Assembly: GCF_000003195.3 (NCBI RefSeq)
Contig: NC_012878.2
Coordinates: 41,829,248-41,893,247, forward strand
Length of the DNA stretch: 64,000 bases
DNA from: Sorghum bicolor
Lineage: Eukaryota > Streptophyta > Magnoliopsida > Poales > Poaceae
Direction: 5' to 3'
In this document: piece by piece, positions 186-58,465 of the stretch
Layout: each line of letters opens with the position of its first letter
How positions within the stretch are numbered: position 1 is the first letter of the stretch
The notes under the pieces: generated by a model
What the model was told of the DNA's origin: nothing
The model's input: the letters and a program-made list of their open reading frames with translations, nothing else
Database searches by the model: none
Program-made: the position numbers and the translations under genes

Positions 186-673
186 TGTAACACCCTAGGT
201 GTTAAGCATGCACTTAGTCTTATAAACCATTCATAAGCATTCTCATCAAACATGAGCATGAGCATGACATCATATGAGCATAATAGAAATTTAGTGTAAT
301 ATTATGTGCTTAATTAAAATAGATTTAATTGTGCTCAATTAAAATGCTTGCTTTAAAATTACTTGTGATGACCAAATTAGGTTGAGATATGTTTTAGATG
401 AATTAAGATTAATTTTATGAAATTTTTAGAGCTTTAGAATTTGAGAAATGGATTTTATACACATTCCCTAAAATGAATTTATTTAAAACCTAGGACTAGT
501 TTTAAACTGTAATTCAAATTCTATTTGGAATTTGAGTTTACACTTTAAAACAAAGTTGTAGAGTATTTTATGGGGAGCATTTTCTCTTTTTACCCCAAGC
601 CCTAAAAAGTTTTACAAAAGTCTCAAAATCTGTGTTCACTAGCGGGCCGGCGCCAACCAACCGACCCAACCAG
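186..673 (+). repeat. H: 5' LTR, first part
   Basis: Begins TGTAACACCC and matches the 3' LTR from 42165 base for base over long runs (ttaagcatgcacttagtct, ccattcataagcattctcat). The match breaks at 673, where E1 inserted, and resumes after 7866. The LTR starts TGTAACA and its partner ends TGTTACA, the usual short inverted ends. The sequence is AT-rich and non-coding. Confidence 0.85.
669..673. repeat. Target-site duplication of E1 (accag), partner 7862-7866
   Basis: The pentamer accag flanks E1 on both sides. Removing E1 and one copy restores the uninterrupted H LTR sequence as seen near 42685. Confidence 0.9.
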
Positions 674-1139
674 TGTCGACGAAAGCTAGTCGGCAGTCTA
701 CCTTGGGGTATACCCACGGTAGTAGTTTATCGGCAGACAGGTGCACAAGCTACGAACTTGATGGTGACGCAAGACACAGACAAGGTTTTTATCCAGGTTC
801 GGTCGCCGTGTGGGCGTAATACCTACGTCCTGCATCTGATTGTATTGCTGTGGGTTGAATTGTGTTGAGTTGAGTTGTCCTAGGAGGGTCCCTTGTCTCC
901 CCTTATATAGTCCGGAGGGCAGGGTTACAGATCTGGAAACTAATCCTAGTCGGTTACAATTGCCATAGATAGTACGATATCAATCCCTATTCTAACCGAC
1001 TAGAATCCTACTCGATCTCCATGTCTTGTTTCCTTGCGCGAAACTCCGAACAGTCAGATCAAGTCTTGAATTGTCTCGTGATGGACCAAGCCTCCTGGCC
1101 CAAGTCTAGCCGTAAGGGTATAGGGGTTTATACCCCACA
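674..1139 (-). repeat. E1: 3' LTR (left, minus-strand element)
   Basis: Nearly identical to 7395-7861. On the minus strand the LTR starts TGTGGGG and ends with GTCGACA. A TATA box (TATATAA on the minus strand, 903-909) lies inside, followed by the presumed transcription start. It inserted into the H 5' LTR. Confidence 0.92.
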
Positions 1140-1940
1140 GCTAGTCCCCGAGCACCGTGTATTGTGATGTAACACACCGTCTTGAGCTTCTTCGATCAGC
1201 AAGGCTTGACATCTTCGATCGGCATGAAAGTCATCTAAACAGTTGCAACGGTAATTTAACCAACTCAAAAGACAGTTGATCAACATTGATATCGAAGAAG
1301 CAGGTTGTTTAAAGAATGCATGGTGCTCTTGAGAAAAAATATTTCTTTTCCCGATGAAGTGTGCCCACTTTACTTTTCTGCATAGCAAAGTATGCCAAAA
1401 ACAAGCAAGTTCACTGCAAGGTGAAGTGTGCCCACTTAGTCCCCGAGCCTGGTAGTAGGTGACGTAGGCTTGTGGTGCCAGGGTCTAAAATGAATAATCA
1501 TCTTAAAATTTTCAGAGACTAACATGCATCGCTAGATGCATCGTACCGATGTAGTCCCCGAACTTGCTGGAAGGCGAAGTATGATCCTTGTAGCAAGGTC
1601 TAAAAAATAAAATTACCCCTCAGTTGTATATGAGTCCAATTCATATGTAACTGAAAAGAACAGTCCCCAAGCTGTGGTTGGAGAGTGATCGAAACAAGCC
1701 CCGAGCATAGTGAAGGGAGTGATTAACGAGTCCCCGAGCACGATTGAGAATGTAGACATGCTCGGTGGTCGGTACAGTCCCCGAGCACGGCGTAGAGACT
1801 AATCGACAAGTCCCCGAGCGTGGTTGGGAATGTAAACGTGCTCGGTGGTCGGAGCAGTCACAGATTGTCGAAAAGGCAGACTGGTCGACCAGTCCCCGAG
1901 CATTTTATGCTCGGTGGTCGGTACAGTCCCCAAGTATATC
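1140..1940 (-). repeat. E1: array of about ten polypurine-tract-like motifs upstream of the 3' LTR
   Basis: On the plus strand agtccccgagc or a close variant recurs near 1142, 1437, 1552, 1661, 1697, 1729, 1775, 1809, 1892 and 1925. On the element strand this reads gctcggggact, which is also the tract immediately before the 3' LTR at 1140-1155. The inverted form tgctcggtggtcgg follows several copies, so CCGAGCA/TGCTCGG hairpins can form; the one at 1896-1916 is nearly perfect. No protein is supported here. Confidence 0.7.
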
Positions 1941-2227
1941 ACGTCCATCTAATCAAAGATTCTATTTATCTTTTGGAAAAAATCCCATAGCCACATTAAT
2001 GTGCGATGAGACAGAGCGTCCTACCATCTTGTCAGTCTGCTGCATAAAAAGAGGAGCCTGCGAACTGTACATCCGCTCATTGGGGATATCAAGAAAGGAA
2101 ACCAGCAATTATTAAAAAACGGCCACCAAATTTACTGCGGTAGCTCTTGAAAACTGAAACGCCGCAACCGCCGAAAAGACCGCCCACTTCCCCAAAATGC
2201 GGGAAGTGGTAGAGGTGGAGCTGTTAT

Positions 2228-2234
2228 TATAAAA
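2228..2234 (+). promoter_or_regulatory. Candidate TATA box for the E1 antisense gene
   Basis: TATAAAA lies 119 bp upstream of the ATG at 2353, on the same strand as the antisense gene and opposite to the E1 LTR promoters. The distance fits a short 5' UTR. This is inference from motif and position only. Confidence 0.4.
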
Positions 2235-2352
2235 AGCCCAAGGTCGCACCCTTGTTCTGTACCCAACAACCACATACTTTTGCCCAGCCTTCGTCTTCCT
2301 CGGCACCTTCAATCCCCCCAAATCCAAGTTCAAAGCTTTCCGCAAGAAGGAA

Positions 2353-3228
2353 ATGGCAAAGAGCGACGCCAAGAAAAGGGCCGAGATGATGGCCAAGGAG
2401 TGGAAGAAGTCCCGTAGCAGCACGAGGTCCCTTAACGACCTCGTCGAGATGGGACTCCTCCACAATCAGGAGCTCGGCGGCTGGAGAGCACCGGAAGGGG
2501 AAAGCTACCCCGACCCTCACGTCGGTGAGATCGTAGTGTTTGAAGATTTTTTCAAGAGGGGGTTTGGGATTCCAGTTCATCTTTTCGTTCAAGGTCTTCT
2601 TCTGTATTATGAGATCGGGATCTGCAACCTGCACCCGAACTCCATTCTTCTTGTTTCCACTTTTATTCACTTATGCAAGGCCTATGTCGGGATAGAGCCG
2701 CACTTCGATCTATTCCGCTACTTGTTTTGTTTGAGGAAGAAGGGAGCGGTCGGGGGCTCCAAGATTGCAGGTGGAGTATACCTCAATCTTCGTGACGGGA
2801 TGAAAAACCGTTACCTCAGTTGCCCATGGAACACCTCCCTCACCGATTGGTACAAGAGGTGGTTCTACATTAGGGAAGAACCGGGCAGCGCCACTTTTTG
2901 CGATGTTGGGTACATTCCCGAGAAGAGGGTCAGCTGGACAGATCAGCCCGAGTACACTGGTCAGGTGTCGGAGTTGATGGACCTAATTGACTGGTCCAGC
3001 TTGGACGGACCAGGGGTGGTCGGGAACTTTCTCGTCCGACGAGTGATGCCTTGCCAGAGGAGGGTGCACTCGGCGTACGAGTACGTAGGAAGCCAAGACC
3101 TGACCAGGATGCAACGAGATGGTTTGGAAAAGTCAAAGGTCCAGTTGTTGATGAACGAGTTGTTCAACTTGACTGATGATAACTTCGTTCGAAGTGATCA
3201 CCGGATGCATGCCTTTAAGCTAGGCTGA
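2353..3228 (+). CDS. First exon of the E1 antisense gene: Transposase_28-like (putative gypsy-type transposon) domain
   Basis: A 291-codon frame from ATG 2353 to TGA 3226. The N-terminus is Lys/Arg-rich (MAKSDAKKRAEMMAKEWKK). From about residue 75 it follows the pattern I associate with the Pfam family Transposase_28: IPVHLFVQGLLLYYEI, then LHPNSI, then FIHLCKAYVGIEPHFDLFRY and WFYIREE. Despite its name the family has no known transposase activity; it is found as an additional ORF in plant Tat-lineage elements. The frame is antisense to E1 gag. The stop sits 12 bases before a good splice donor at 3241, so it may be a late mutation in an exon that once read on. Family assignment is from memory of the motif pattern. 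Confidence 0.7.
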   Translation: MAKSDAKKRAEMMAKEWKKSRSSTRSLNDLVEMGLLHNQELGGWRAPEGESYPDPHVGEIVVFEDFFKRGFGIPVHLFVQGLLLYYEIGICNLHPNSILLVSTFIHLCKAYVGIEPHFDLFRYLFCLRKKGAVGGSKIAGGVYLNLRDGMKNRYLSCPWNTSLTDWYKRWFYIREEPGSATFCDVGYIPEKRVSWTDQPEYTGQVSELMDLIDWSSLDGPGVVGNFLVRRVMPCQRRVHSAYEYVGSQDLTRMQRDGLEKSKVQLLMNELFNLTDDNFVRSDHRMHAFKLG

Positions 3229-5570
3229 CCAGCTCCTAAGGTAAATGAATACATTTGTTTATTTGTATTGCAATGTGAATACGGTAGCCTTTTGACTGAT
3301 GACTTGTCGCTGTTGTATTGCAGATAGGAGACGTTGACCGGTGCTTGGTGTATGTGTCGCTGGCACCCGGTATGGACCATCCTGCTGGGGTGGACCCGCC
3401 GGCAAGCGATGCTGCTCGGTGTCTCCAATACACTAGCAGCGAAGAGGACCAGAGCCGACCAGCCCCGACCACAGAAGACAGAGCGGCGGGGAAGAGGCCA
3501 ATGGCTGTGCAGCCATCCCCCACGGAGGTAATGCCGGCAGAGACTAGCCAGGCCCAGAAGCGTCGCTGACTCATGAGGATCGTCGACGACGGGGACGAAG
3601 AGGACGAGACTGCTCTGGCCTTGGTCCGAAGACCGCGTAGCCGCCCTGACATCGTGCCAATCAACACTGGTCGGGTAACCAGGGATCCGCCTGCCGCGCA
3701 CACCGAGCCGATACGCCTTGGAGGGGCAGAAGCGGCAGCGGCGGTCGGGAGGACTAGGAGAAGGTTCTTCACAGTGACGCACCGGAGCTCTGACCTGTAA
3801 GTGCTAAAACATGTCTTCTGCGTTTCCCCCTTTTTTTATTTGCATTATCTCCTCTTTGTTAGTGCGGCCTCGGATGTTGATCCGTGCAACGTTGCTGGCT
3901 TGGGGAGAACTGAGCCGGCAGTTGCCGACAAGGATACCGCCGACCAGACCGGCCGCGAGCAACCCGTGGAGCAGCCCGTGGTTGTGTCCGTGGCAGAGAC
4001 CGCCGAAGAGGACCCGGCTCAAGACAGGGCCGGAGCGTGGACCCCGACAAGGGGTGATGAAACGCCTCCCCCGAGCAGCGTTGCTGAGGAAGGAGACAAA
4101 GTCCCGACCCCCCTCCAGCTGAAGAAGAGAGGGACCCAACTCCAACCTCGGTGGAGGCTTCCACACCGGAGGGCTCCCCTGGCCGAGGTAAGGGTCCAAT
4201 GATACCTGTTACCGTGGCTGGGGCTGGCGAGGGGGCGCCGAGGCCCAAGCGACCTCAGATGACGAGGTGGAGGAGATCCAGGGGCGTCCCCATGATGGTC
4301 GCCAACACGTTCACGTGTGGCACCAGCGTGGGGACCACTGGGCCGGTCATGAAGAGCTCACCGAGATCGAGGAGGCGGCAAGGGTAGAGCGCGCTGTTAA
4401 GCGGCTCGTTGATGAAGTTAAGGTGAGTGGTCTAGTATTCTGCCAGAGTACGTATATGCTGTTGCTTGTTCACTGTATGACATGTATATTTCTCGCAGGG
4501 CGCAATGAAAACGACGAAGTATCGAAAAAGGTGCTTCGACCAAATTGAAGGTATAGTCGCCGAGAACAAGGCCCGGACCGCGGAGGTGGACCGCCTTCGG
4601 TTGGAGGCCGAGAGGCAGGCGGCCGAGAAAGCGGCTCAGGAAGAGCGCCTGCTGGATCTGAATCGGCGACTAGCCGATAAGGATCGTGAGAAGAAGGGTA
4701 AGTCGAATGATCCGAGCAGTTGTAGTTAACCGCATGGTCAGTTTTGATGACCAGCAATTGTTGCTTCTGGTCTGAAGGAGGAAATCGAGCGCCTCCAAGA
4801 AGAGAGGGATTAGCTCGACCAGGAGCGTGCCGGTGCGCTGGACCGGGCGCAAGGTTGGCGAGGAGTTGAAGAACAAGAGTCGGGAGTTGGCTGGTAAGAG
4901 CCGTTTCACCCTTTTCGACCACACAATTTTCTTTTCCACTTGTTTATACTGTCGTAGTATGTTGCTGACTATTTGCTTGGTTTTTCTTGAAAACTCAATT
5001 GTAGTGCTTAAAGTCAACACTAAGAAGCATCTCGACGAGCTGGTCAAGGAACGAGACTCCTGGAAGACGAACTGCATCAAGATCTGGAAAGGAGTTGCCC
5101 CAGTACTGGATCTGATCAGTCCCGAGCTCCTCGAGGACCAGCCCCGCGCGCCGAAACTGACCCCGGTCGAGAAGGCGCAGCGAGCGTGGGGCTGGCTTTA
5201 GCAGTTCATCAAGGACACCGGGGAGTTTGCCGGAGCGCACGTTCTCAGCATGGTACGTGCTCACTACCTCCTGGTCGACTTGTCCCGACTAGAGAGGGGA
5301 TATCCCAAGGAGGTTGGTCCGAGGGAGGCAAATGACCTTCGCGTCGGCCTGCTCGACCTATCATCGACGGTGATCAGCGATATAAACCTCTGCGGGACGT
5401 CAACTCCGCCCGATCAGCCCAGATCAGATAGGTCAGCCAGGGAATTGTCGGGGGCGTCGATTGCAGGAGATTGGCGGTCGACGCTTGCGGTCTCGACCAG
5501 CCAGGCGCCGGTGGCCCCGACCCCTTCAATGGGACAAGAGAGCCGTGCGGGTGATCAGCCCGAGCAGTAG
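2353..5570 (+). pseudogene. E1 antisense gene: Transposase_28-like domain plus coiled coil, about seven exons, degraded
   Basis: Reading on from the first exon, blocks of open frame are separated by GT-AG gaps: 3241-3323, 3797-3862 and 4423-4498 are clear; others near 4698-4777 and 4890-5005 are less sure. The middle part is Pro/Ala/Thr-rich. Exons from about 4499 encode a charged coiled coil (AENKARTAEVDRLRLEAER and on), and the last part (LDELVKERDSWKTNC, then LERGYPKEV) ends at TAG 5568-5570. In-frame stops at 3226, near 3570, near 4812 and near 5199 break it. A polyadenylation-like aataaa follows at about 5650. Introns can persist here because they lie antisense to the genomic RNA. Function unknown. 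Confidence 0.65.
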
Positions 5571-5867
5571 GTCTGTAGAGTAGTCTGTAGGAGTAGACTA
5601 GAAACTACCCAGAGGGGTGCTTATTGTAAACTTTGTATATAAAGTTTGTAATAAAGTTTGATTTTTGAGAACCATGGTTTTGAGCGCTGTAAATAAATTT
5701 GTTTGAGTGATGTATCACTTAGTCATGTTGATTGGCCTTGAGGAGCTTGTCCTGGAAAGTTATCGTGGCGCCTGTCCAGTACTCTGCGTATGTAAAAGTA
5801 TATAGGAAAAAAAGGCAAACTTTATATTATTCATCAAAAAAGATTTACAAGTAAAATGTACTGAAAC
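5571..5867. other. E1: non-coding gap between convergent gene ends
   Basis: Holds the probable 3' UTR of the antisense gene (aataaa near 5650) and the sequence just after the integrase stop on the other strand. Nothing else is supported. Confidence 0.5.
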
Positions 5868-6464
5868 TTAGGGATAGAAGCGTCGTAGTCTGTCGATGTG
5901 CCAGGTGTTGGGCAGGCGTGTTCCATTTGGGTACGCCAGTCTATAAGATGTAGGGCGTGTAACTTCGGCAACCACAAAAGGTCCCTCCCAGGGTGTGGAT
6001 AGCTTGTGCATTCCCTCCTGGCTTGTTTTCCATTTGAGTACCAGATCACCGACCACAAAGGAGCGGTCTTTGATGTTCCTGTTGTGGTATCGTCTAATGG
6101 CCTCGAGATACTTTGTTGTTCGAAGGCAGGAAGTCAGGCGTCTCTCTCTTCTGTGCAGTTGATCTCGAGTTCTCTGACGGGTGTCCTTCCTTCGATTGTT
6201 GACGGGTGATCGGCTGCAATGGTGCCCACCGGATCGCGGTGAGGTGCGGCTGCGATGAGTCTGGTCGGAGGTGACTTCCGTGTAGGAGACGGCTTGGACT
6301 CTTTTGAGCATAGTAGCGGTCTGTCCCATGGCCGTGATCAGATGTGCCCATATGTTGGTTCGAATGTCCTGGTATTCAGGAGTATCGGGGAGGCGATCTA
6401 AGTTTGCCATGGCAACGGCGACATTAGCGCTTGGTGTCTTATAGACCTGCTGATTTCCGACCAT
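5868..6464 (-). pseudogene. E1: in-frame fusion of gag N-terminal region to the integrase C-terminus
   Basis: The 5' half reads like Tat-type gag (VYKTPSANVAVAMANLDRL, PDTPEYQDIRTNIWAHLI). The 3' half is the C-terminal tail of integrase (GDLVLKWKTSQ, STPWEGPFVV, TSYRLAYPNG, WHIDRLRRFYP) ending at a stop at 5868. The junction lies roughly at residue 110-125, in a basic stretch. Everything between (gag core, protease, RT, RNase H, integrase catalytic core) is absent, so this is a deletion derivative. It is still open for nearly 200 codons. Whether the fusion is ever translated is unknown; a frameshift separates it from the gag start upstream. Confidence 0.8.
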
Positions 6465-6626
6465 GTTGAAAGCATCACCGAGATTATTTGGGACAAGCTG
6501 TCGCTCCTTGTCTGCTCGTTGTTGGGCACGGTCGGCGTTGCGCTGCTCTCGTTGCTGTCTCTGTTCGTCGGTTTCGCCTTCAACGGCTGGTTCGTCATTG
6601 CTGACGTTGAGAACCAGGTCACCTCG

Positions 6627-7346
6627 TCAGAGTGGAAAGACTGGGAAGCGGGGGAACTCCAGAGGGCATGGCGGCAGATCTAAGTCGTAGTCTTCGTCCT
6701 CGGGGTGTAAAACCTCGGTAGGAACAGACCCTGTGCTGGAGTTTGTACTGCTGGACTTCTCTTCTGGCAAAGTGTGGATGGAGACCATGTTGACAAAGTG
6801 ACGGGCTGCTCGCCTGTTCTGGCTCGGCAACAAGCCCGCCTTACCGAATAGAGATTGAGTATGCTGCGAAAACTGGTCAGCCACGTTGCTCAAACCATAA
6901 GGGCAGTTCTGGTCTGGGGAGGCTGTCTTGAGCTTGACGATCCGTCCCGCGGGGGTCGACATTATCGTCAGAGACGTCTTCGATCGTTTGTGCGTGGAGA
7001 CACGAGTTGATCGACGAGAGTCGAAAAAATTTGTTACTGCCGCTTGATCGGGTCTGCGCGAAATCGAATCCACCAGGTTGGAGGCTTCGAGAAGCTTATG
7101 GTCGGCGCGACCGAGGGCTTGAAGAAGATCCGAGTTGTCGACTCGCTTTGCCCTGTAGCGAGGGAGCGGAGGTCGGGTCCTCTGGGTTGGCGTGATCGAA
7201 GTTGACGCCTCTGCTGTCCCAGATTGGATCTGGGTCTCTCCCGAAGTCGTGGTCGTAAGGCCGCCACCAAGAGTTGTCCAAGTGATCTGCGCAACGGTGA
7301 ACGTGAGACCTTCAGCCACGGCCGCAGAAGCTGGAACGATGACCAT
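6627..7346 (-). pseudogene. E1: N-terminal gag leader region
   Basis: Starts at an ATG about 30 bp inside the primer binding site and runs about 240 codons. It is Thr/Ser/Pro-rich, then has charged patches and ends in an acidic stretch (EVLHPEDEDYDLDLPP). Reading then moves by frameshift into 6398-6622 and on into the fusion frame at 5868-6464, so the original gag was one reading frame. No catalytic domain is expected in this part. Confidence 0.6.
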
Positions 7347-7375
7347 CTTGTTCGTCGGGAGAGCTGTACACACAC

Positions 7376-7393
7376 CCCCTACCTAGCGCGCCA
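7376..7393 (-). other. E1: primer binding site
   Basis: On the minus strand TGGCGCGCTAGGTAGGGG follows the 5' LTR end after one base. Its TGG start and position fit a tRNA primer site. It fixes the element strand. I do not assign the tRNA. Confidence 0.75.
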
Positions 7394-7394
7394 C

Positions 7395-7861
7395 TGTCGA
7401 CGAAAGCTAGTCGGCAGTCTACCTTGGGGTATACCCACGGTAGTAGTTTATCGGCAGACAGGTGTGCAAGCTACGAACTTGATGGTGACGCAAGACACAG
7501 ACAAGGTTTTTATCTAGGTTCGGCCGCCGTGTGGGTGTAATACCTACGTCCTGCGTCTGATTGTATTGTTGTGGGTTGAATTGTGTTGAGTTGAGTTGTC
7601 CTAGGGGAGTCCCTTGTCTCCCCTTATATAGTCCGGAGGGCAGGGTTACAGATCTGGAAACTAATCCTAGTCGGTTACAATTGCCATAGATAGTATGATA
7701 TCAATCCCTATTCTAACCGACTAGAATCCTACTCGATCTCCATGTCTTGTTTCCTTGCGCGAAACTCCGAACAGTCAGATCAAGTCTTGAATTGTCTCGT
7801 GATGGGCCAAGCCTCCTGGCCCAAGTCTAGTCATAAGGGTATAGGGATTTATACCCCCACA
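7395..7861 (-). repeat. E1: 5' LTR (right)
   Basis: Pairs with 674-1139. TATA box on the minus strand at 7624-7630. Differs from the left copy by transitions only, plus one extra C in the C-run at the outer end. Confidence 0.92.
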
Positions 7862-46117: not shown

Positions 46118-46806
46118 TGTTGACACCATTTTTGGGCACGTGTCTAGGACGGCAGGATAGGGTGGCAGTACGATGCGGGTTGCTGATGAGGATGGTTGCC
46201 GATGAGGGAGAGGTTGAATGTGACTAAGTCCACAGGCGGTAATATGGTGCCGATGGCTGGATAAAAAGGTCTGCCGATGACTATGGCAAGGGGATTGCCG
46301 ATGATGCGAAGGAGGAGTCCGGAAGCTGCTAGTTGTCATGTGGAGGAGTTTCGGTTTGTCACGAAGGATAGTTTTATTATTTCCTTAGTTATTTGCATCG
46401 TTTTGTATACGGATTCCGTGTAATTTGGAATTCGAATTCTAATCGTGTCTGGTTGTAGCTCTTTGAGCAGGGTATAAATATAAACCCTAGGACCTTGTAA
46501 TAATCAATCAAGAAATCAATCAAACACACGTTTTTACTCATATTCCAGCATCTACTTTTCGACGACTTCGTCATACTTTTTTTCTTTTTATTACGAGTTC
46601 TTAGGAATTCGTCGACTTAAGCTCGGCGTGTTCTCGAGTTCCGCATGAGTACCTCTTAGCCGTGACATCCGGGCGCATCGCTGTTGTCAGGACTAAAGTA
46701 TTCGAGTTATCACCTTTGCCGATAGTAAGGTCAAATCGGCTGGCACGCCTTAACGTTTGAATCGGGTATTAGCCCTTTGTGTTTGCAGATCAGTTTTGCA
46801 TCAACA
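46118..46806 (+). repeat. E4: 5' LTR
   Basis: Starts TGTTGACACC and ends GCATCAACA. TATAAATA at 46473-46480. It contains six GCCGAT/ATCGGC words. Confidence 0.95.
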
Positions 46807-46813
46807 CATCTTT

Positions 46814-46831
46814 TGGCACGCCCAGTGGGAC
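46814..46831 (+). other. E4: primer binding site
   Basis: TGGCACGCCCAGTGGGAC, seven bases after the LTR, begins with the TGG complementary to a tRNA CCA end. I do not assign the tRNA. Confidence 0.8.
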
Positions 46832-46852
46832 AGATTCAAGATCAAGATCAAC

Positions 46853-49800
46853 ATGTCGATCTCTGACCTCGATCAAGAGAACGTCATCCCCGTGACGGAG
46901 GCCAACCTCAAGGATGAGCAAAAGCAAGCTATTGCCCAAGCCATGGAAGAGTTCAAGCAGCAATGCCTGAGGTCTTTCAGCATAAACAGGAGCGGCGAAG
47001 TGGTCCAGAAAGATGCACTGCTGGCACCACGGCAGGTCACCTTTGACGCCAATCCTGGCAAGCTTCAAGATATGGTTGACAATGCCATCAATCGAGCGTT
47101 GATTAACCAAGCTGGTGTACTGTCTAATACGGTTTTCAACGCCGTGGCAAGAACTTTCAAGGAAGGACAAATCCCGCCAGATTATGTGGGTCCCTCTCAT
47201 CATCAGCCAACGGCACCAGAGGTCACGGCTCCATCGGCTGCCTTGACGAATGCAAGTACACAGTCTGCCGTCCCTCCAAGTACATTGGGGACTACTGGTG
47301 CACTATCTATGCCGATGGCAACCAACCCACAAATTTCAGTTGGGCAGCATAAACTGACAACAGATATGTTGGCATCGGCAATGTCAGGGTTGACTCTTCC
47401 TCCCAACTGGTGGGGTTATGGTATGCCTCCAGAGTTGACACCGGGAACATCACAAATAACTGACATGAGGGGCAAAACTCCTATGACATCGGCACCTCCC
47501 AATGCGCCGGTGAACCAGAGTCCTCGGTATACCACAACTACTACTGCAAGGCCTCACACTGGGAATCCTCAAGATTCAATGTTTCAAATGCCCAACGCAT
47601 CGGCAGAGTCAATGCTGATGCAATAGAGGCCTATGGCCCAGTCGGGGTATGTCAATTCAACGACGGTACCCAATTACCAATCATCGGCAGCATCTATGCC
47701 GATGAACGCTAATAATGGATGGCTTGGACAGCAAGCCTTTCCACAATCGCCCCAGCAGGGTTATCAGACTATAGGGTTCCAGCAAGGGTAGGTCTATCCC
47801 GGGTTCCAAGGTCAGGGGATTCCCAACCAGCCAATAAATTTTGGACAGCAACTCGGAGGACAGCCAATCGGTGGACAGCAGTTTGGTGGTCCGCAGATTG
47901 GAGGACAGGTGACCAACGCAATGTTCCATGCAGGTCACGTCCCGAACAGACACGTGGAGGTTCGCCACCAAGTGCCAGATCCGCAGCCGCCTCATCGGCA
48001 AGATGCCGATGCGTATTGGGCCGATAAGATTGCTGAAGTAATGAGGGAACAATTTGGGATAAAACCCAAAGTCAACACTTATTCTTATCGGACACCGTAT
48101 CCTCCAGCGTATGATTTGATCCCGCTTCCACATCGGTACAAGGTACCGGATTTTACAAAGTTTTCCGGACAGGACGACACGTCAACCATGGAGCATGTCA
48201 ACAGGTTCATTATTCAATGTGGAGAGGCTGGTAACAGGGACGAATTGAGGGTTCGTCTATTTTCATCATCATTGTCTGGATCGGCCTTTACTTGGTTCAT
48301 ATCATTACCTCCCAACTCAGTAATTACTTGGGCCGATCTAGAGAAGCAATTCCACAAATACTTCTTCTCGGGGGTTCATGAGAAGAAGATCACCGACTTG
48401 GTCAAGTTGAGGCAACGTAATGATGAGTCGGTTGAGGGATTTGTGCAGAGGATACGAGAGGTCAAGAATAAATGCTATAGCCTGGTTCTGGATGATCGGC
48501 AGCTAGCCGATTTGGCTTTCCAGGGTTTGTTGCCACATATCAAGGATAAGTATGCCTCTCAGGAGTTCGAAAGTTTAAGTCATTTGGTGCAGAGGATATC
48601 TGATCAAGACATTAAGCCTTTCGAGCCTAAGAGGGCATGGAATAAGAAAGTGTCATTTGTTGATGAAGCAACAAGCTCAGATTCCGATGAGGAACCAGTA
48701 ATCGGTTTGGCAGAGTGGGTAAAAAACAAGAAGCCGATGTCTTGTCCTTTTGGGCAGAAGGAACCAGAGAAGTTTGCCTTTGATACCGCCAAGGCCGATA
48801 GGATATTTGACTTTCTACTTCAGGAAGGTCAAATCAAACTGTCACCTAACCATGTGATCCCATCGGCAGAAGAGTTGAAGAGGATGAGATATTGCAAGTG
48901 GCATAATGCAACTTCACATGACACCAACGAGTGCAAAGTATTCAGACAACAGCTGCAATCGGCTATAGAGTCAGGGAGAATCAAGTTTGACAGTTCCAAA
49001 GCCCAGAAGCCGATGAAGATAGACCAACATCCTTTCCCGACAAACATGTTGGATGCTAAGGGGAAGGCTAAGGTCTTAACGTCGGAGACAGCTGAGAAGA
49101 GTGCATCGGTAGATCCTCAGCATCAAGTTACTACTGCCGATGCAAGAAGCAAGGGCTTGGTCCAGGAAGGAACCAGCTCAGGAGGGCTTCCTCGATCTGG
49201 TATCGTCATAACTCATAGGAGGCCTCGGGAACAATGGCAACAACGGGAAGATCGGTATCGGCGCCAGCAGGAAGATTATCAACGGGAAGAAGAAAGACGC
49301 CGACAGGAGTGGAATCGGCACAGGGATCATTGGAATTGCCCATTCTTCATCCATTGTTGGGAGGAAAATATCAAGCTTCCTACTGTTAGAGACTTCCCTG
49401 AATGCAACGGTTATGATCGGTACGATAGGAACGATCGGCGCTATCATGATGATGAACGGCGAGCTAATGGGCCGATCAGAGGAAGGGTGTCAGTTCATGA
49501 CCGGTTGGGGCGCAGATTCAGTGGGCACAACAGACTTAGTGACCGTGTCCAGTATTTTCCCAGGAACCAAGAGGAGCTCGAAGGAATGGCTGATGCGCGG
49601 GTTCCCGATGAATTCATATTTTGCAGGGATGCTAACACGCATCGCATGGAGTCAAGGGAGAACCGACGCCCGACGGCAAGGCAAAGGCCACTTCCTCCAT
49701 GGTGCCCTCGAGGATTAACCAAGACACAGAAAAGGAGATTGCAACGAGAAAGGCAAGAGGAGCTAAACAAGGGAGAGAACTCTGGAAGTCGGCAGCCGTC

Positions 49801-50500
49801 AGACACTAAGAGGGAAGGTCCATCGGCGGGCGTCAACATGGTCTTCATGTTGCCGATGGAGTTCCTTGCACCAGCCAGTGACGATGAGTTGGAATTTTCT
49901 GATCAAATAGCTCAGTTGGCTCTGGATCCGATGACGGCTATCTTTGAGAAACCTGCCGATGACGAGAGGCAGCATCTTAAAGCTTTGTTCCTCAAAGGAA
50001 GGGTTGATGGGCAGCCAATGACCAAGATCCTAGTTGATGGTGGAGCTGCTATTAATATTATGCCGTATGCAGTATATCGGAAGCTTGGGAAAGGGGATCA
50101 AGATTTAACCAAGACCGATATGATGCTCAAAGACTTTGAAGGAAACGTGTCTCCAGTCAAGGGGGCGATATGTGCAGAGTTGACCATCGGCAGCAAAACC
50201 TTGCCGACAACTTTTTTCGTGATCAGCGGAAAAGGTGCCTACAATTTATTATTGGGGAGAGATTGGATTCATGCCAATTGTTGTGTTCCATCTACAATGC
50301 ATCAGTGCTTGGTTCAGTGGGTAGGTGACAAGATTGAGATCGTCCCAGGAGATTCTTATTATGTTATCGCATCGGCAGAAGCGGATACTTACGAAAGGAC
50401 CAAGTGCATTTCAGGAGAAGTTTGGGAGAAAGATTTTCTCAAAGTTGCCGATTATGAGATTCCACCGATCCAAGCAGTCGGTTCTGACGACGGTTTTTAA
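46853..50500 (+). pseudogene. gag: E4: gag-protease polyprotein, one frame with two amber codons
   Basis: Start chosen at ATG 46853 (MSISDLDQENVIPVTEANLK), shortly after the primer site. The frame runs 1216 codons to TAA 50498 with TAG at 47624 and 47789 only. The N-terminal 310 residues are Ala/Pro/Thr/Gln-rich. After ATG 47909 the open part (863 residues) has the capsid domain at about 92-212 (TMEHVNRFIIQCGEAGNRDE, FTWFISLPPNSVITWADLEK), a zinc-knuckle-like CKWHNATSHDTNEC near 328, an Arg/Asp-rich region and a protease near 705 (ILVDGGAAINIMPY, then LLLGRDWI). D-G-G in place of D-S/T-G is usual in this lineage. The stops may be C-to-T changes of CAG codons; an intact relative would tell. 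Confidence 0.85.
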
Positions 50501-53500
50501 TGGATAGATTCGCCGATGATGGAAAATTAGGCCAGGGATTCACATCGGCCGATGATTTGGTAGAAGTAGATATAGGTAGTGGTGATAAGCCTAGGCCTAC
50601 TTTTATTAGTGCTAAATTAGATCCTGAGTGTAGGCGACAATTGACTAGTTTGTTAAAGGAATATAAAGATTGCTTTGCTTGGGATTATACAGAGATGCCT
50701 GGTTTAGACCGATCAATTGTTGAACATCGGTTACCCATCAAGTCTGGATTTCGGCCACATCAGCAACCAGCCCGCCGATGTAATCCTAACATTCTACCTG
50801 ATATTAAAGCCGAAATCACTAAACTTATTGAAGCTAAGTTTATTCGGCAGTGTCGGTATGCCGAATGGATTTCCAATGTCGTTCCGGTTTACAAGAAGAA
50901 TGGGAAGCTTCGGGTGTGCATTGATTTCAGGAATCTCAATAAAGCTACGCCGATGGATGGATACCCAATGCCTGTCGCCGATCTACTGGTTGATGCTGCG
51001 GCTGGCCATCGGGTCATCAGCTTCATGGATGGTAATGCGGGTTACAATCAAATATTCATGGCAGAGGAGGATATTCCAAAAACTGCATTCAGGTGTCCTG
51101 GTCATGTTGGACTATTTGAATGGATAGTCATGACTTTTGGGTTAAAGAATGCTGGTGCTACTTATCAAAGGGCTATGAATTTTATATTTCATGAGTTCAT
51201 CGGCAAGATCGTAGAAATTTATATTGATGATGTGGTGGTTAAGTCTGGAGATTTCTCAAAGCATCTTGCCGATTTACGAAAAGTGTTGGAGTGCACAAGG
51301 AAGCATGGATTGAAGATGAATCCCAACAAGTGTGCATTTGGCGTATCGGCAGGGCAGTTTCTTGGTTTCATGGTACATCAGAGGGGTATTGAAATTAGTC
51401 GAAGATCTATTGATGCCATCAATAAAATAGTGGCCCCTACCAATAAAACCGAGCTCCAATCCTTGATCGGCAAGGTGAATTTTATCAGAAGATTTATATC
51501 GAATTTATGTGGGAGGATTCGTGCTTTCAGTCCTCTTCTTAAATTGAAAGCCGATCAAGAGTTTGTTTGGGGAGAAGAACAGCAGTTGGCTCTGGATGAA
51601 ATCAAAAAGTATCTAGTAAATCCTCCAGTTTTGGTTCCACCTCAACAAGGGAAGCCCTTCAAATTGTATTTATCTACCGATGGATCGGTTATCGGTTCAG
51701 CTTTAGTTCAAGAATTTGAAGGGAACGAGAGAGTAATTTATTATTTGAGTAGAAGGTTGATTGATGCTGAAACCAGGTATTCGGCCATTGAGAAACTGTG
51801 CTTATGCTTATATTTTTCATGTATCAAGCTGAGACATTACCTGTTGTCGGCTGAATGTGCTGTTGTTTGCAAAGATGACGTGGTCCGATACATGCTATCT
51901 ATGCCGATTATGAGTGGTAGGATCGGTAAATGGATTTTAGCGCTGTCGGAGTTCGATTTGCGTTACGAATCGGCTAAGGCAGTCAAAGGGCAGATTATGG
52001 CCGATTTTGTGACTCAGCATTGCGGTCTAGTGGAAACCTTGGAAATTGCACCCTGGACGCTCTTCTTTGATGGATCCACCTGTGACCGGGGGGCAGGAAT
52101 CGGTATTGTATTAGTTTCTCCTAAGGGGAGGAAGTATGAGTTTTCCTTGCCGATTGTTGCTACATCAACAAATAATCAGGCTGAGTATCAAGATCTGATC
52201 AAGGGATTGGAGTTGTTAAGAGAAGTTCGTGCTGATGTTGTTGAAATATTCGGGGATTCTATGTTGGTTATAAATCAATTGGCCGGAAGCTATGAATGCC
52301 GAAGTGAAGTTCTCATAACTTATTTCGAGAGAAGTATGCAACTGTTAAAGGAATTCAAGGACTTCCGATTGGAGCATGTTCCCCGATTGTATAATGAAGA
52401 CGCTAATCGGTTAGCTCAGCATGCCTCGGGATATCAGCCAATGATTAATGCGACATCGGCAGTCGGTGCCGGTGATTGGAGGAAAGAAATTGTTGATTAT
52501 CTAAAAGATCCATCCAAAAAAGTTGAAAGACGGGTTCGATTTCAGGCAACCAAGTATGTGCTCCTTGAAAATGAATTGTATTATCGAACTGTCGACGGAA
52601 TTCTTCTCCGATGCCTAAGTGATGATGAAGCCAAAAGTTTGATGGGGGAAATCCATGAAGGAGTGTGTGGAGCGCATCAGTCAGCTTTCAAGATGAAGTG
52701 GATGATTCGAAGGAATGGATATTTTTGGCCAACCATACTTGAAGATTGTTTTAGATATTTCAAGGGATGTCAAGGTTGTCAAAAGTTCGGTAATATCCAG
52801 AGAGCACCCGCATCGGCTATGAATCCTATAATAAAACCTTGGCCGTTCCGGGGATGGGCCATCGATCTGATCGGCCAGATTTATCCACCATCTAGCAAAG
52901 GGCATAAGTTCATTCTAGTTGCCACTGACTATTTCACTAAGTGGGTCGAAGCTATTCCTTTGAAGAAAGTCACATCGGCCAATATGATTGATTTTGTGAA
53001 GGAGCATATTATTTACCGATTTGGGATTCCCCAAACGATTACTACCGATCAGGGCACCATGTTCACGTCGGGGGAGTTCGATGAATTCGCAATCGGAATG
53101 GGAATTAAAGTGTTGAATTCTTCTCCTTACTATGCTCAAGCCAATGGGCAGGCCGAAGCGTCTAACAAAGGAATTATCAAGCTTATTAAACGAAAGATTG
53201 AAGAAAATCCTAGGCGGTGGCATACATTGTTAAATGAAGCACTATGGTCTTATCGGATGGCTTGTCATGGATCAACCAAGGTGTCACCCTATCAATTGGT
53301 GTATGGACATGACGCAGTGTTGCCTTGGGAGATTAAGGCTGGATCTAGGCGATTATCTTTTCAAGATCAATTGGCTGCCAATGATTATGCCACTTTGATG
53401 ACCGATGAGTTAGATGATTTAGCAGGGCATCGGTTAAAGGCTTTAATGAGTATAGAAGAAAATAAGAAGAGAGTTGCTAGATGGTATGATAAGAAAGTAA

Positions 53501-53733
53501 AGGCTAAGGAGTTTGCCGATGGGGATTTAGTATGGAAGTTGATTTTGCCAGTCGGGACTAAAAGTTCGAAGTTTGGGAAGTGGTCTCCTAATTGGGAAGG
53601 TCCTTATCGGATAAGACACTCGGCTCCTGGTAATGCCTATATTCTAGAAACTCTCGAAGGAGTTGAATTTCCCAGAGCATTAAATGGCAAATATTTAAAG
53701 AAGTACTACCCCAGCATATGGGTCGATGCATAA
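50500..53733 (+). CDS. pol: E4: pol polyprotein, intact (RT, RNase H, second RNase H, integrase)
   Basis: 1077 residues from ATG 50500, overlapping the gag stop as TAATG. RT: VCIDFRNLNKATPMDGYPMP, FMDGNAGYNQI (about 174), FGLKNAGATYQRAMN and the catalytic YIDDVVVKS (about 240). A Ty3-type RNase H follows (LSTDGSVIGSALVQE, about 389), then a second, archaeal-type RNase H (WTLFFDGSTC about 520, NNQAEYQDLIKGLELL, GDSMLVINQL, YNEDANRLAQHAS). Dual RNase H is a hallmark of the Tat lineage. Integrase: zinc region HEGVCGAH and CQGCQ (about 716-756), catalytic Asp in WAIDLIG, Asp in TTDQGTMF and Glu in GQAEASNKG (about 785, 847, 885). The C-terminal GPYRI region ends with YYPSIWVDA. No chromodomain. 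All catalytic residues I looked for are present. Confidence 0.93.
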   Translation: MDRFADDGKLGQGFTSADDLVEVDIGSGDKPRPTFISAKLDPECRRQLTSLLKEYKDCFAWDYTEMPGLDRSIVEHRLPIKSGFRPHQQPARRCNPNILPDIKAEITKLIEAKFIRQCRYAEWISNVVPVYKKNGKLRVCIDFRNLNKATPMDGYPMPVADLLVDAAAGHRVISFMDGNAGYNQIFMAEEDIPKTAFRCPGHVGLFEWIVMTFGLKNAGATYQRAMNFIFHEFIGKIVEIYIDDVVVKSGDFSKHLADLRKVLECTRKHGLKMNPNKCAFGVSAGQFLGFMVHQRGIEISRRSIDAINKIVAPTNKTELQSLIGKVNFIRRFISNLCGRIRAFSPLLKLKADQEFVWGEEQQLALDEIKKYLVNPPVLVPPQQGKPFKLYLSTDGSVIGSALVQEFEGNERVIYYLSRRLIDAETRYSAIEKLCLCLYFSCIKLRHYLLSAECAVVCKDDVVRYMLSMPIMSGRIGKWILALSEFDLRYESAKAVKGQIMADFVTQHCGLVETLEIAPWTLFFDGSTCDRGAGIGIVLVSPKGRKYEFSLPIVATSTNNQAEYQDLIKGLELLREVRADVVEIFGDSMLVINQLAGSYECRSEVLITYFERSMQLLKEFKDFRLEHVPRLYNEDANRLAQHASGYQPMINATSAVGAGDWRKEIVDYLKDPSKKVERRVRFQATKYVLLENELYYRTVDGILLRCLSDDEAKSLMGEIHEGVCGAHQSAFKMKWMIRRNGYFWPTILEDCFRYFKGCQGCQKFGNIQRAPASAMNPIIKPWPFRGWAIDLIGQIYPPSSKGHKFILVATDYFTKWVEAIPLKKVTSANMIDFVKEHIIYRFGIPQTITTDQGTMFTSGEFDEFAIGMGIKVLNSSPYYAQANGQAEASNKGIIKLIKRKIEENPRRWHTLLNEALWSYRMACHGSTKVSPYQLVYGHDAVLPWEIKAGSRRLSFQDQLAANDYATLMTDELDDLAGHRLKALMSIEENKKRVARWYDKKVKAKEFADGDLVWKLILPVGTKSSKFGKWSPNWEGPYRIRHSAPGNAYILETLEGVEFPRALNGKYLKKYYPSIWVDA

Positions 53734-53878
53734 AAGTTTAAGTGCCGATAACACTCCTATCGGCTGGATTTAAATGTTTGGGGGCAGACTTAATGTTTCA
53801 AAAGATGCCGATAACAGTCTTATCGGCTAGACTAAAAGCTAAAAGCGGGAAAACAAAGGTGTGTTGCCGGTGAAAGCT
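53734..53878 (+). other. E4: spacer after pol with a polypurine-like tract
   Basis: tttgggggcaga at 53777-53788 resembles the true tract before the 3' LTR (ctggggggcatg). Two copies of a tgccgataacann-ttatcggct inverted pair stand at 53743-53768 and 53805-53828 and can each form a hairpin. Confidence 0.5.
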
Positions 53879-56800
53879 TCAGATGTTCAGCAGCGCTTGG
53901 ATTGCCGATATGGCGCGCAGCCGGATCTGATTGGCTGTCTCTATCTCTTTGATATCATCATCGGCAGAACCTTCTATCGGCTTCAGCTTCCTCTTCAACT
54001 GCAGCGCTTTGCGACCGTGGACGTTTCGTTCTTGTTCAAGGTGCTTGATGGTCTCCGGCAGTTGACTCTCTTCTTGCTGGGCTTGGGACAGAGCATCCTC
54101 TACTTGCTTGAGTTCGGCCAGTAGAGCTTCTCTTTTTGCCGATAGATCAGATACTTTCTGCTTCAGTGCATCACCTGAGGACTTTAAGGTGCCGATGTTC
54201 TTATGTTTCTCATCGGCTAAGAGTTTTTCTTTCATCATCTCCTCAGAAAGCTGGATTTGAGCGGCTCTATCGGCAAGGCGTCGAGTGGCTCTCTGGTACT
54301 GTAGCTGGCGGCTTTCTAGGTGTGCAGCATGGAAGAGGGTTTCTTCAGCATCGGCAGGAATTTGGCCTCTAAGGGTTTTAAACAGGGCCTTGGCTGGGTC
54401 AGAATCGTTGACCAGTTGAGCTGTGTCTTGATGAAGTATGGCCGATAGCTCCTCCAGCTTAGCCCTGGTTTCTGCCGATACAGTCCCAATTGCCCGAGAG
54501 GAGCTTGCTTCCTCACCTTCTTCTTCGAAGATATCAATGGCGAAGGAGAATAAGCTATCGGGGGAATCTTGTTCCTGAAAATGAGAATGAAATAAGTCAT
54601 TTTTTATGGTCAAAACTTCGGCAGACGATACTGGTGGAAAAATTGGATGACTTACTTGTTTCAAGGCAATTTCTTGCCTTTGACTCGAAGATACCGATGG
54701 AGCTACAGGTTGATCGGCAAATGTTGCCGATGGAACGATATCGACTGAAAGAAGACAGGAAGGGTTATGAGACTAAATGAGAATAAGTTTATTGGCAGAA
54801 GTATTGTTGAAATATGTTACCCGGAAGAGGAACAACAGTTGTCTGAATCGGGGAAACCGCCGATGATATAACTGGACCTGCCGGGCCAGTTGTTTGTTCG
54901 CCCACGTCAACTGATGTACCTTCTGTTTGAGGTTCTTCCTGCTGGGGTTCTTCCATCTGTGGTGCTTCCTGCATTGGTTGGGGAGATGGTGCTTGCTGTG
55001 TCTGGACTTCTGGAGAAGAAGGGGAAGATTCCACCGGGATTGGAGACACCGGAGGAGGAGGGGGAGTTGCCACTTTCTGGCGCTTTGTTCCAGCCTTAGC
55101 ACCTTGGGTGCCCTTCCTCTTTGGCTGGCTAGACTGGGGGGCATCGGTACCTTGGCGTTTGGCTTTTGCCGATGCACCAGTTTGCTGCAACAACAAAAAG
55201 GAGTTTATGAGCACAGATAGCCGATACAAAGATAGTCAGCATAAATGAAAAGGGTTTGACAAATTGCCTTGAAAGCTTGCGCCAGAGTGGAAGCAGTTAC
55301 CGTTGGCGATGTCTGAGTTTTCCTGGTGGTAACTTTCTTGAGGCGCGCACCCCGATGCACGATGGAAGCCAGAGTGGGAGCATTGTGGCCGATTGAGGAG
55401 ATCGGGCCTGAGGGGAACAAGTCGATCGGCTTGTCACTCCTGCTAACCGATGGGGGGTGTTGTCAACCTGCAAAAGGAATACAGGGGTAAGTTACCGATG
55501 GAAATAGTATTGGAAAATGAGACATCGGTTTAAAATACTTACAGTGTCATCAGGGACTTCGTATTCGGGGTCGATCATGCCGCGGTATGAGAGGGCCGAT
55601 CTGCAGAATAGATTCTCTTTCCATTCTGCGCACCATAGCTTGTATGCCTGAGTGATAAAGGCAGCTGGAACCCATTCTGACAGATCTACATCTGTATCGG
55701 CATTTGGTGGTAGCTGGGCTACTCGAGTCCACTCGAGAAGGTTGGTGATGGGTTCTCTGGGCTTTATCACATCGGCATAAGGAAGTGCAATCGGCAACTG
55801 GCCGAAAGCTAGCTGGCGAGCTAATGCCGATGGATTGTAAAATTCATAGGTTTGGGGAGAGGTTTTTGTGCTACCAAAGAAATTCACTGGTATGGCTCTG
55901 GGAGTCACAATTGCCATCATCACCTCATTATCCCTGTCAAGAGCTTCATCAAATGGATTGAAGGTTAGAGGGAGCATGCTGTCTGGGTCATCATAGGCCA
56001 ACCATGGTCGTTCATCTCTGGCCAATCCCTCATACAGAGTCTCGAAGAATCGGCCGATCTGATCCAGATTGTTCCCTGAACCGGGTAAGACTATAACGGC
56101 TTCGCCAAAGTTCAAGGGGGCACGCGTTGCCGATTCCTCTTCACCCAACACATGATTTTCGGCTATATCTCTTGGGAAGTGCTGTGAGAACAAGTTGAAA
56201 TCAAGGCGCTTATGCAGGTGCAGATTGAGCCACATATTAATAAACCACCAGGGGCCTCCCAAGTTGCCGATGGATTGGCCAAGCAGGAGTTTCTGGGCTA
56301 CCTGATGAAGAAGGTGGTAAACAGCGCTGAGCAAATATCGGCCGAGAGGAAATTGGCCACCACTAGCCAGTCTTTCTGCTGCCGATAGATAGACAGAAGT
56401 TGGTCCTGCCGATCGACCACAGAATACAAACTTGTCCAGCCACATGTTCAGAAAGGTGGTTTGCTCCTTTATGGTGACAGGCCCTCTCCCGCGGTACTTC
56501 TGGATGTACCCTGACCAACCGCCGATAGCGCGAGTCTCCACTTTGGCATTGGGGGCAGTATCAAAAAAGTGGGTGCTATTGGCAGAAGATATATCTAGCC
56601 CAGTGAGCATGGCTACATCGGCAAGGGTAGGAGAAGCAGGGCCGTGGCCAAAAACAAAAGCATTGAGAGTGTCTGACCAAAAGTAGGATGCAGCTATCAG
56701 CAGTGACTCGTTCCTGTGCATATCGGCAATGGATAGCCTAATGCATTGAGCTAGCTTCCTCTCACCCCACTGGACTTCATAAGAATTGCTGACCCTCAAG

Positions 56801-57137
56801 AACCAGTCTTTCCACCCTACAGTAGGGCTAGGCCAAGAACGAAAAGTGTCTTTCCATAGATCTGCAGAAAAGTTTTCAGCCCTAAAGGGGATTCTATTGG
56901 TTTCTGCGTTGATAAGATTGGTTGGATCTGAATCCCCTAGAGGACCGAGACATTGAAGGTGTGGTTGATCGGTGGGGATGACAATTTTATTGGACAACTC
57001 CTAGTGATTTTGGGGGAATAAAAATACAAAGAAAAAGAAAAGGGGAATATTCAGTAAGATGAATCGCAGATGAATAGGAATATACACAGAAGATGAGATG
57101 GAAGTCTGACCTCAGGGACGACGAAGCCAATGGCCAT
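53879..57137 (-). CDS. E4 antisense gene: plant mobile domain protein with C-terminal coiled coil, six exons
   Basis: Exons by GT-AG sites and phase: 57137-57111 (MAIGFVVPE), 57000-55543, 55467-55268 (leaving by a GC donor), 55184-54821, 54744-54656, 54574-53879. Exon 2 (486 codons) holds the plant mobile domain: PTVGWKDWFLRV, CIRLSIADMHRNESLLIAAS, YFWSDTLNAFVFGHGPASPT, LADVAMLTGLDISSA and GGWSGYIQKYRGRGPV. Exon 4 is Gln/Pro/Glu-rich; exon 6 is a coiled coil (SEEMMKEKLLADEKHK, KREALLAELKQVEDALSQAQ). Phases agree everywhere except in exon 3, which is one base short, probably in the C6 run at 55452-55457. The host PMD proteins MAIN and MAIL1 are implicated in transposon silencing in Arabidopsis. 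The role here is unknown; counteracting silencing is a hypothesis. Confidence 0.8.
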
Positions 57138-57776
57138 CTTGTCGTGAAGAGGACGTTGGAGGGCACCGGAGTTGATGAAGAGGAGTGCTTGTCGGAGAAC
57201 TTGAAGGTTGTAAATGGCGCCGCCGCTGGAAAAGTAAAGTTGGATAGTAGAATGGTGTAATGGGGGAGGAGTACCCAAGAAGGAACTATTTATAGGATAG
57301 GATGGGCAAGGGAAAATCCGACTTATCTCTTTGCCGCATCCGAGAAGCCCGAGGGTACTCAGGTGGATATGGTAACTGTTCGCACGGTAATCCAGGGATT
57401 GTGCAGGTGATTTGACGGGAAGCGGTCATTATCTAAAGATATTTTACTGTGCGAGATCTCCTGGTCGGTTCATCGGCGATATTCTATAACGGTCATCTTG
57501 CCGATGGGCGGATAGAAGGGAGGTAACCGTTTTTGCGAATATCCTGGTCAGAGCATCGGCAGATCTTTGTAACGGCATTGTTGCCGATGTACGACCAAGA
57601 AAGATGCCCGTTTAGGAAGTTGGGGATTTCGAGGAATCTGCGGAGGATTAGGATCAGAGTTGTCCAGATTGAGGTTGTCGGTTACCAGATTAGGAGCATT
57701 AATTGCGGAGAAGGCATCATTACTGCAGAGAATTTCGGAGCATTAATAGTTTTATACTCCGAAACTGGGGGGCATG
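57138..57776 (-). promoter_or_regulatory. E4: antisense gene 5' region and element polypurine tract
   Basis: Holds the antisense 5' UTR and TATA. At its right end, on the plus strand, aaactggggggcatg (57762-57776) directly precedes the 3' LTR as polypurine tract. Four GCCGAT/ATCGGC words lie between 57470 and 57590, in the likely antisense upstream region. An open frame at 57533-57886 crosses into the LTR and is not supported. Confidence 0.5.
57287..57294 (-). promoter_or_regulatory. Candidate TATA box of the E4 antisense gene
   Basis: TATAAATA on the minus strand, 150 bp upstream of ATG 57137, outside the LTR and facing away from it. Confidence 0.5.
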
Positions 57777-58465
57777 TGTTGACACCATTTTTGGGCACGT
57801 GTCTAGGACGGCAGGATAGGGTGGCAGTACGATGCGGGTTGCTGATGAGGATGGTTGCCGATGAGGGAGAGGTTGAATGTGACTAAGTCCACAGGCAGTA
57901 ATATGGTGCCGATGGCTGGATAAAAAGGTCTGCCGATGACTATGGCAAGGGGATTGCCGATGATGCGAAGGAGGAGTCCGGAAGCTGCCAGTTGTCATGT
58001 GGAGGAGTTTCGGTTTGTCACGAAGGATAGTTTTATTATTTCCTTAGTTATTTGCATCGTTTTGTATACGGATTCCGTGTAATTTGGAATTCGAATTCTA
58101 ATCGTGTCTGGTTGTAGCTCTTTGAGCAGGGTATAAATATAAACCCTAGGACCTTGTAATAATCAATCAAGAAATCAATCAAACACACGTTTTTACTCAT
58201 ATTCCAGCATATACTTTTCGACGACTTCGTCATACTTTTTTTCTTTTTATTACGAGTTCTTAGGAATTCGTCGACTTAAGCTCGGCGTGTTCTCGAGTTC
58301 CGCGTGAGTACCTCTTAGCTGTGACATCCGGGCGCATCGCTGTTGTCAGGACTAAAGTATTCGAGTTATCACCTTTGCCGATAGTAAGGTCAAATCGGCT
58401 GGCATGCCTTAACGTTTGAATCGGGTATTAGCCCTTTGTGTTTGCAGATCAGTTTTGCATCAACA
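57777..58465 (+). repeat. E4: 3' LTR
   Basis: 689 bp, same length as the 5' copy; five of the six differences are transitions. TATAAATA at 58132-58139. Confidence 0.95.

Follow-up and report, generated by a model that had tools for sequence, protein, structure and literature searches.

Sequence-specific anti-silencing has been described for VANDAL elements, which are Mu-like DNA transposons (PMC5735166). In VANDAL21, the VANC21 protein binds the motif YAGTATTAY at noncoding sites and causes a loss of methylation that extends over the element (PMC5735166; PMC10398659). The sequence domains of VANC proteins are DUF1985/DUF287 (PMC5735166), and a survey of MULEs lists VANDAL elements with PMD and/or DUF open reading frames (PMC6446971). 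PMD itself is called a domain of unknown function in a review (PMC8616336). Ikeda and colleagues speculated that MULE-captured PMD serves anti-silencing, and the review repeats this idea for transposon PMDs (PMC5418596, PMC8616336). PMD has been reported in 57% of Ogre elements (PMC6317226), and the host PMD proteins MAIN and MAIL1 have been linked to a DNA motif, DOWN, and to transposon silencing (PMC7156037).

The element analysed here, E4, is an LTR retrotransposon in a 64,000-nucleotide stretch of Sorghum bicolor DNA (the window), and the hexamer GCCGAT/ATCGGC (the word) is repeated along it on both strands (Table 1). The E4 LTRs are 689 bp long with 6 differences between the two, and the 5-bp target duplication, identified by eye, is CATCC. 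Pfam searches found gag, protease, RT, RNase H, additional RNase H and integrase, and on the opposite strand, antisense to gag-pol, PMD (PF10536, E 1.1e-16). Within pol the additional RNase H corresponds to RVT_3 at 523-642, between RT_RNaseH (384-485) and Integrase_H2C2 (709-763). The architecture is Tat/Ogre-type: E4 shares with PMD-bearing Ty3/gypsy elements of this type the gag-pro-RT-RH-additional RH-INT order and PMD as an extra open reading frame (PMC6317226, PMC5418596). E4 differs in its element-wide word; the excerpted text of the same reports mentions none for PMD-bearing elements and leaves PMD function open (PMC6317226, PMC5418596).

Table 1. Features of E4, in window coordinates.
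Feature	Position	Strand	Remarks
E4 LTR retrotransposon	46118..58465	.	102 GCCGAT/ATCGGC words, both strands, along length
5' LTR	46118..46806	+	6 words; three at 24 bp spacing (46249, 46273, 46297)
gag-protease region	46853..50500	+	30 words within 46853-50499
pol (RT, RNase H, additional RNase H, integrase)	50500..53733	+	20 words
Spacer after pol	53734..53881	.	4 words, two similar GCCGAT-9 nt-ATCGGC units
Antisense gene last exon	53882..54664	-	10 words
Antisense gene middle exons and introns	54665..55491	-	7 words
PMD exon (Pfam PF10536)	55492..57000	-	15 words; exon start by eye; predicted fold matches VANC21 (9lnj)
Putative antisense first exon (MAIGFVVPE, then GT)	57111..57137	-	placed by eye; inferred
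Region upstream of antisense gene	57466..57600	.	two similar units, 83 bp apart, inverted word pair in each
3' LTR	57777..58465	+	6 words

The nearest named relatives of E4 are grass proteins. The C-terminal part of the antisense last exon shares 68% identity with P0010, a PMD-DUF1409 protein of Miscanthus, and the middle exons encode a Lys/Arg-rich stretch that, by eye, resembles a nuclear signal. This copy is not intact, because the gag leader frame (46853-47908) contains two in-frame stops. It has probably been methylated since insertion, as judged from CpG transitions between the LTRs at 4 of 40 CpG sites. None of the six CpG sites that lie inside words has changed in this way, but these numbers are too small for a verdict on whether words are protected.

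A preliminary description of this DNA put the words in E4 at about 100, with about 6 expected and about 13 in the rest of the window. We counted 102 (57 GCCGAT, 45 ATCGGC) against a first-order expectation of 5.3, in agreement with the first two figures. The other 51.7 kb hold 16 words with 12.6 expected, slightly more than the earlier figure and no clear excess. Comparison with Markov models, a check suggested in that description, was made with one LTR counted: the 96 words compare with means of 5.1, 11.1 and 47.8 (sd 7.3) in 200 simulations each of orders 1, 2 and 3, the order 3 model already containing much of the word. The top count for any hexamer was 29 in 300 order-1 simulations and 31 in 200 order-2 simulations. 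In 2-kb bins, the five that lie wholly within E4 contain 13-19 words each, the two at its edges 14 and 3, and the remaining 25 bins 0-2. The excess is genuine, and it is extreme. Words are present in nine of ten E4 compartments, absent only from the 46-bp leader, and our counts reproduce the earlier account of words in LTRs (six in each), gag, protease, pol, antisense exons and introns, and spacers, in both orientations (57:45, P 0.28), many of them extending to a longer form, CATCGGCA/TGCCGATG (37 occurrences).

Other parts of the window yielded separate observations. A second LTR element, E1 (670-7861; LTRs 670-1139 and 7391-7861), carries a Transposase_28 (PF04195) gene opposite a weak pol remnant. 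In it CGACCA/CTGGTC-type words are raised (CTGGTC 19 versus 3.6 in 1930-7390), perhaps as a private word; a second word of this kind, weaker than that of E4, is not proved. GGCGCCC-type palindromes, often paired 21 bp apart, occur at 13259-62936 in related LTR-like copies and look like a short repeat of one family. A cluster of GGGCGCCC was rejected as a dispersed word, as it stems from short repeats in related LTR copies.

Coding constraint had been judged insufficient to explain the word, and synonymous-codon shuffling bears this out. In each of the five reading frames tested, the observed count lies above the maximum of 1000 shuffles (observed/mean/maximum: gag leader 5/0.6/4, gag-pro 23/4.4/11, pol 20/3.8/10, antisense last exon 10/2.3/7, PMD exon 15/2.7/8). 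In the proteins of E4 the word occupies roughly half or more of its permitted positions, namely 23 of 37 in gag-pro, 20 of 42 in pol and 15 of 21 in PMD. Control words, taken as those with at least 10 permitted positions among 600 sampled words, fill a median of 6%, with maxima of 50% (gag-pro), 46% (pol) and 45% (PMD). One short word over-represented on both strands, coding sequence included, is familiar from the DNA uptake sequences of Neisseria and Haemophilus and from Chi sites; unlike E4, these belong to bacterial genomes and serve uptake or recombination, not self-reading by a transposon.

Alignment of all 102 sites gave the consensus CATCGGCA[A/G], with a preference that spans one base before to two bases after the hexamer and no common sequence beyond these consensus flanks. 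Since the outer flanks share no sequence, most sites appear to have originated singly. A smaller number lie in short local repeats: those at 24-bp spacing in the LTR, the unit pair after pol and the unit pair upstream of the antisense gene. Words in E4 show no strand bias and are not phased at any of nine periods examined (10-11 bp and 147-200 bp); their spacing is random-like and not even (CV 1.06). This pattern argues for recognition as double-stranded DNA. That the word is under selection, most likely in this form, is well supported.

Viral and genome contigs, plasmids and phages yielded no DNA of a relative, and we compared the relatives of E4 as proteins, scoring for each of 2080 hexamers the positions that permit it in six frame-strand patterns against composition. 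Such a protein imprint shows compatibility with the word, not the DNA itself, and is weaker evidence than a word count at the DNA level. Among the 2080 hexamers, ATCGGC took the top rank in three sets: gag relatives P0233-P0282 (1.78 times expectation), PMD hits P0064-P0110 (2.01 times) and 20 rice-clade pol proteins (1.78 times); shuffled proteins gave 0.96-1.02 times. The pol tree comprised E4 and 120 of 2362 pol hits; in two further grass pol clades, C and E, the word ranked 87 and 23. Because P0064-P0110 includes fragments up to 80% identical, the 19 PMD relatives below 50% identity were tested separately; the word again ranked first (1.87), also in windows non-identical to E4 (1.81). Taken singly in those windows, 8 of these 19 rank the word at 20 or better and 6 rank it beyond 300. 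Many relatives from Oryza show the imprint, as do some from Lolium, one of two from Panicum and one from Miscanthus. With all windows counted, the word takes rank 1 both in PMD hit P0076 (41% identical to E4) and in pol hit P0115 (67%); each hit lies on a contig of 10886 bp, perhaps the same one.

The sets were also thinned for similarity and scored in non-identical windows. The thinned gag set (45 of 50) ranked the word first, with 1133 positions versus 653 and all six patterns raised. Ranks were 2 in the further PMD set (P0064-P0110, 46 of 47) and 29 in the closer set (P0001-P0063, 53 of 63). Among pol sets they were 11 (rice-clade, 19 of 20), 35 (E4-clade, 13 of 13) and 135 (Lolium, 3 of 8) in grasses, and 1861 (legume, 10 of 18), 1663 (Prunus, 2 of 16) and 1003 (other eudicot, 23 of 24) in eudicots. 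This test was run without the Cornus group and grass clades C and E, and both thinned and pooled tests without gag hit P0283 and PMD hits P0111-P0112. Single relatives scored in non-identical windows placed the word anywhere from rank 1 to beyond 1000 in one test, and from 1 to 779 among 51 gag hits. E4's own words were kept no better than other CG words in three of ten pol relatives (P0117, P0120, P0152) and three of ten PMD relatives (P0068, P0076, P0084), and in pol relative P0145 retention was nearly equal (0.35 versus 0.33). From these protein comparisons, the word seems to have persisted in many grass elements even as its individual sites came and went.

Three further observations came from these hits. 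The proteins of a pol group from the eudicot Cornus florida (P0196, P0213, P0215, P0219, P0222) also permit ATCGGC with unusual frequency (mean z rank 4). In the Lolium pol hits P0120, P0121 and P0157, ATCGTC outscores ATCGGC, which hints at a shifted word. In the Lolium multiflorum gag hit P0253 a KIB1-4 beta-propeller domain is predicted to precede gag; this is either a fusion in the gene model or a domain captured from the host.

Two predicted models of the E4 PMD protein match the VANC21-DNA crystal structure (9lnj), as did no other chain compared. The models (mean pLDDT 63.5 and 66.4) are of one protein with overlapping alignments and are not independent, and the comparison tool cautions that mostly helical models may reach such a Z by chance. 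Sequence identity between PMD and VANC21 is 7-8%. Foldseek alone found no significant match for the PMD model in the PDB or among viral models, and the PMD sequence profile matched no PDB sequence at E 10. PMD is the sole domain in the E4 protein at E<=5; the VANC Pfam domains DUF1985/DUF287 were not found in it, and both are absent from the 17 families listed for 17 scanned members. By its models, E4 encodes a protein with a predicted VANC DNA-binding fold, which makes PMD the most likely reader of the word.

The reader could instead be a host DNA-binding protein (an activator, insulator or chromatin factor) whose site E4 exploits, with PMD doing something else. A conserved host reader would give the same imprint in the Oryza, Lolium, Panicum and Miscanthus relatives and in PMD relatives below 50% identity, as observed. 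However, the remainder of the window has no clear excess of the word (16 versus 12.6), the modelled PMD resembles a known reader of a DNA word, and a promoter factor would not usually have its sites spread through coding sequence; we consider a host reader unlikely. Binding of the DNA copy by integrase or gag, for example for compaction, import or protection before integration, would fit the coverage of the whole copy and the better conservation of pol than of PMD in relatives with the imprint (67% for P0115, 41% for P0076). Set against this, the Tat-type pol of legumes and Prunus lacks the imprint, and a requirement for about 100 internal sites is not known for any integrase or gag, which leaves such a role quite improbable.

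Two explanations dispense with a DNA-binding protein. GCCGAU is the complement of AUCGGC, the two are each abundant, and 15 of 23 close neighbours are oppositely oriented, as might be expected of packaging motifs or long-range pairing in RNA. That orientation excess is not significant, though (P 0.21), orientation switches along E4 are random (50 versus 47.7, P 0.36), and words also lie in the antisense intron region and upstream of the antisense gene; a function in RNA appears very improbable. A mutational or conversion bias acting without selection would account for a word indifferent to frame, strand and gene. It should use up near variants, but these are in excess (ATCGGT 26 versus 3.8, ATTGGC 18 versus 7.2, TTCGGC 11 versus 3.9 expected), as expected of weaker or decaying sites; the remainder of the window is unaffected and the site flanks have nothing in common. 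We regard such a bias as more improbable still.

The preliminary description had drawn a parallel with VANC, naming PMD, gag or integrase as possible binders. The predicted fold favours PMD, and VANDAL and E4 alike encode a protein and repeat a short motif in their own element, the E4 protein being matched in its modelled fold to DNA-bound VANC21. The two differ in other respects. VANDAL is a Mu-like DNA transposon and E4 an LTR retrotransposon, and the antisense gene has Pfam PMD and no detected DUF1985/DUF287. VANC motifs lie in noncoding tandem repeats and change fast, whereas E4 words are mostly dispersed, many in coding exons and few in local repeats, and the word is apparently conserved across grasses, going by the protein-level imprint. 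Judged by sequence domains and motif layout, E4 is not a member of the VANC family. MAIN and MAIL1, although likewise PMD proteins associated with a DNA motif, are host proteins that support silencing and expression; DOWN lies in promoters, and the excerpted text of that report makes no claim of direct binding (PMC7156037).

The word and a VANC21-shaped protein in one element suggest, on the strength of the models, a retrotransposon version of VANC self-tagging. E4 would have gained its dense set of sites (core ATCGGC, consensus as above), read on double-stranded DNA, mostly by point mutation and selection and with a few local duplications. Its own antisense PMD protein, the most likely reader, would act in the nucleus, cover the copies of its family and counteract the host's silencing marks over the entire element; copies with more words would then be better expressed and multiply. 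That E4 has been tiled by selection with sites read by its own PMD, for VANC-like anti-silencing, is in our judgement the probable explanation. Weighing against PMD is its divergence to about 40% identity among relatives although the word, in contrast to VANC motifs, seems not to have changed. A broader reading, about which we are evenly divided, is that Ty3/gypsy PMDs may be ancient VANC-fold word readers, that grass elements rewrote their coding sequence to tile themselves, that the pairing may be as old as the divergence of the main lineages of grasses, and that host MAIN/MAIL may be domesticated members.

Among the matches listed in a literature search, covering titles and abstract openings and few subscription papers, there was no report of this word in a retrotransposon. 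E4 demonstrates that transposon coding sequence can hold a second, dense layer of DNA-level information. A retrotransposon with word tiling and a VANC21-fold protein would bring sequence-specific anti-silencing to LTR elements, and, if the broader reading is true, anti-silencing by self-recognition extends past VANDAL DNA transposons to the LTR retrotransposons of plants. The E4 system would give PMD a testable role and would be a natural tool with which silencing could be controlled locus by locus.
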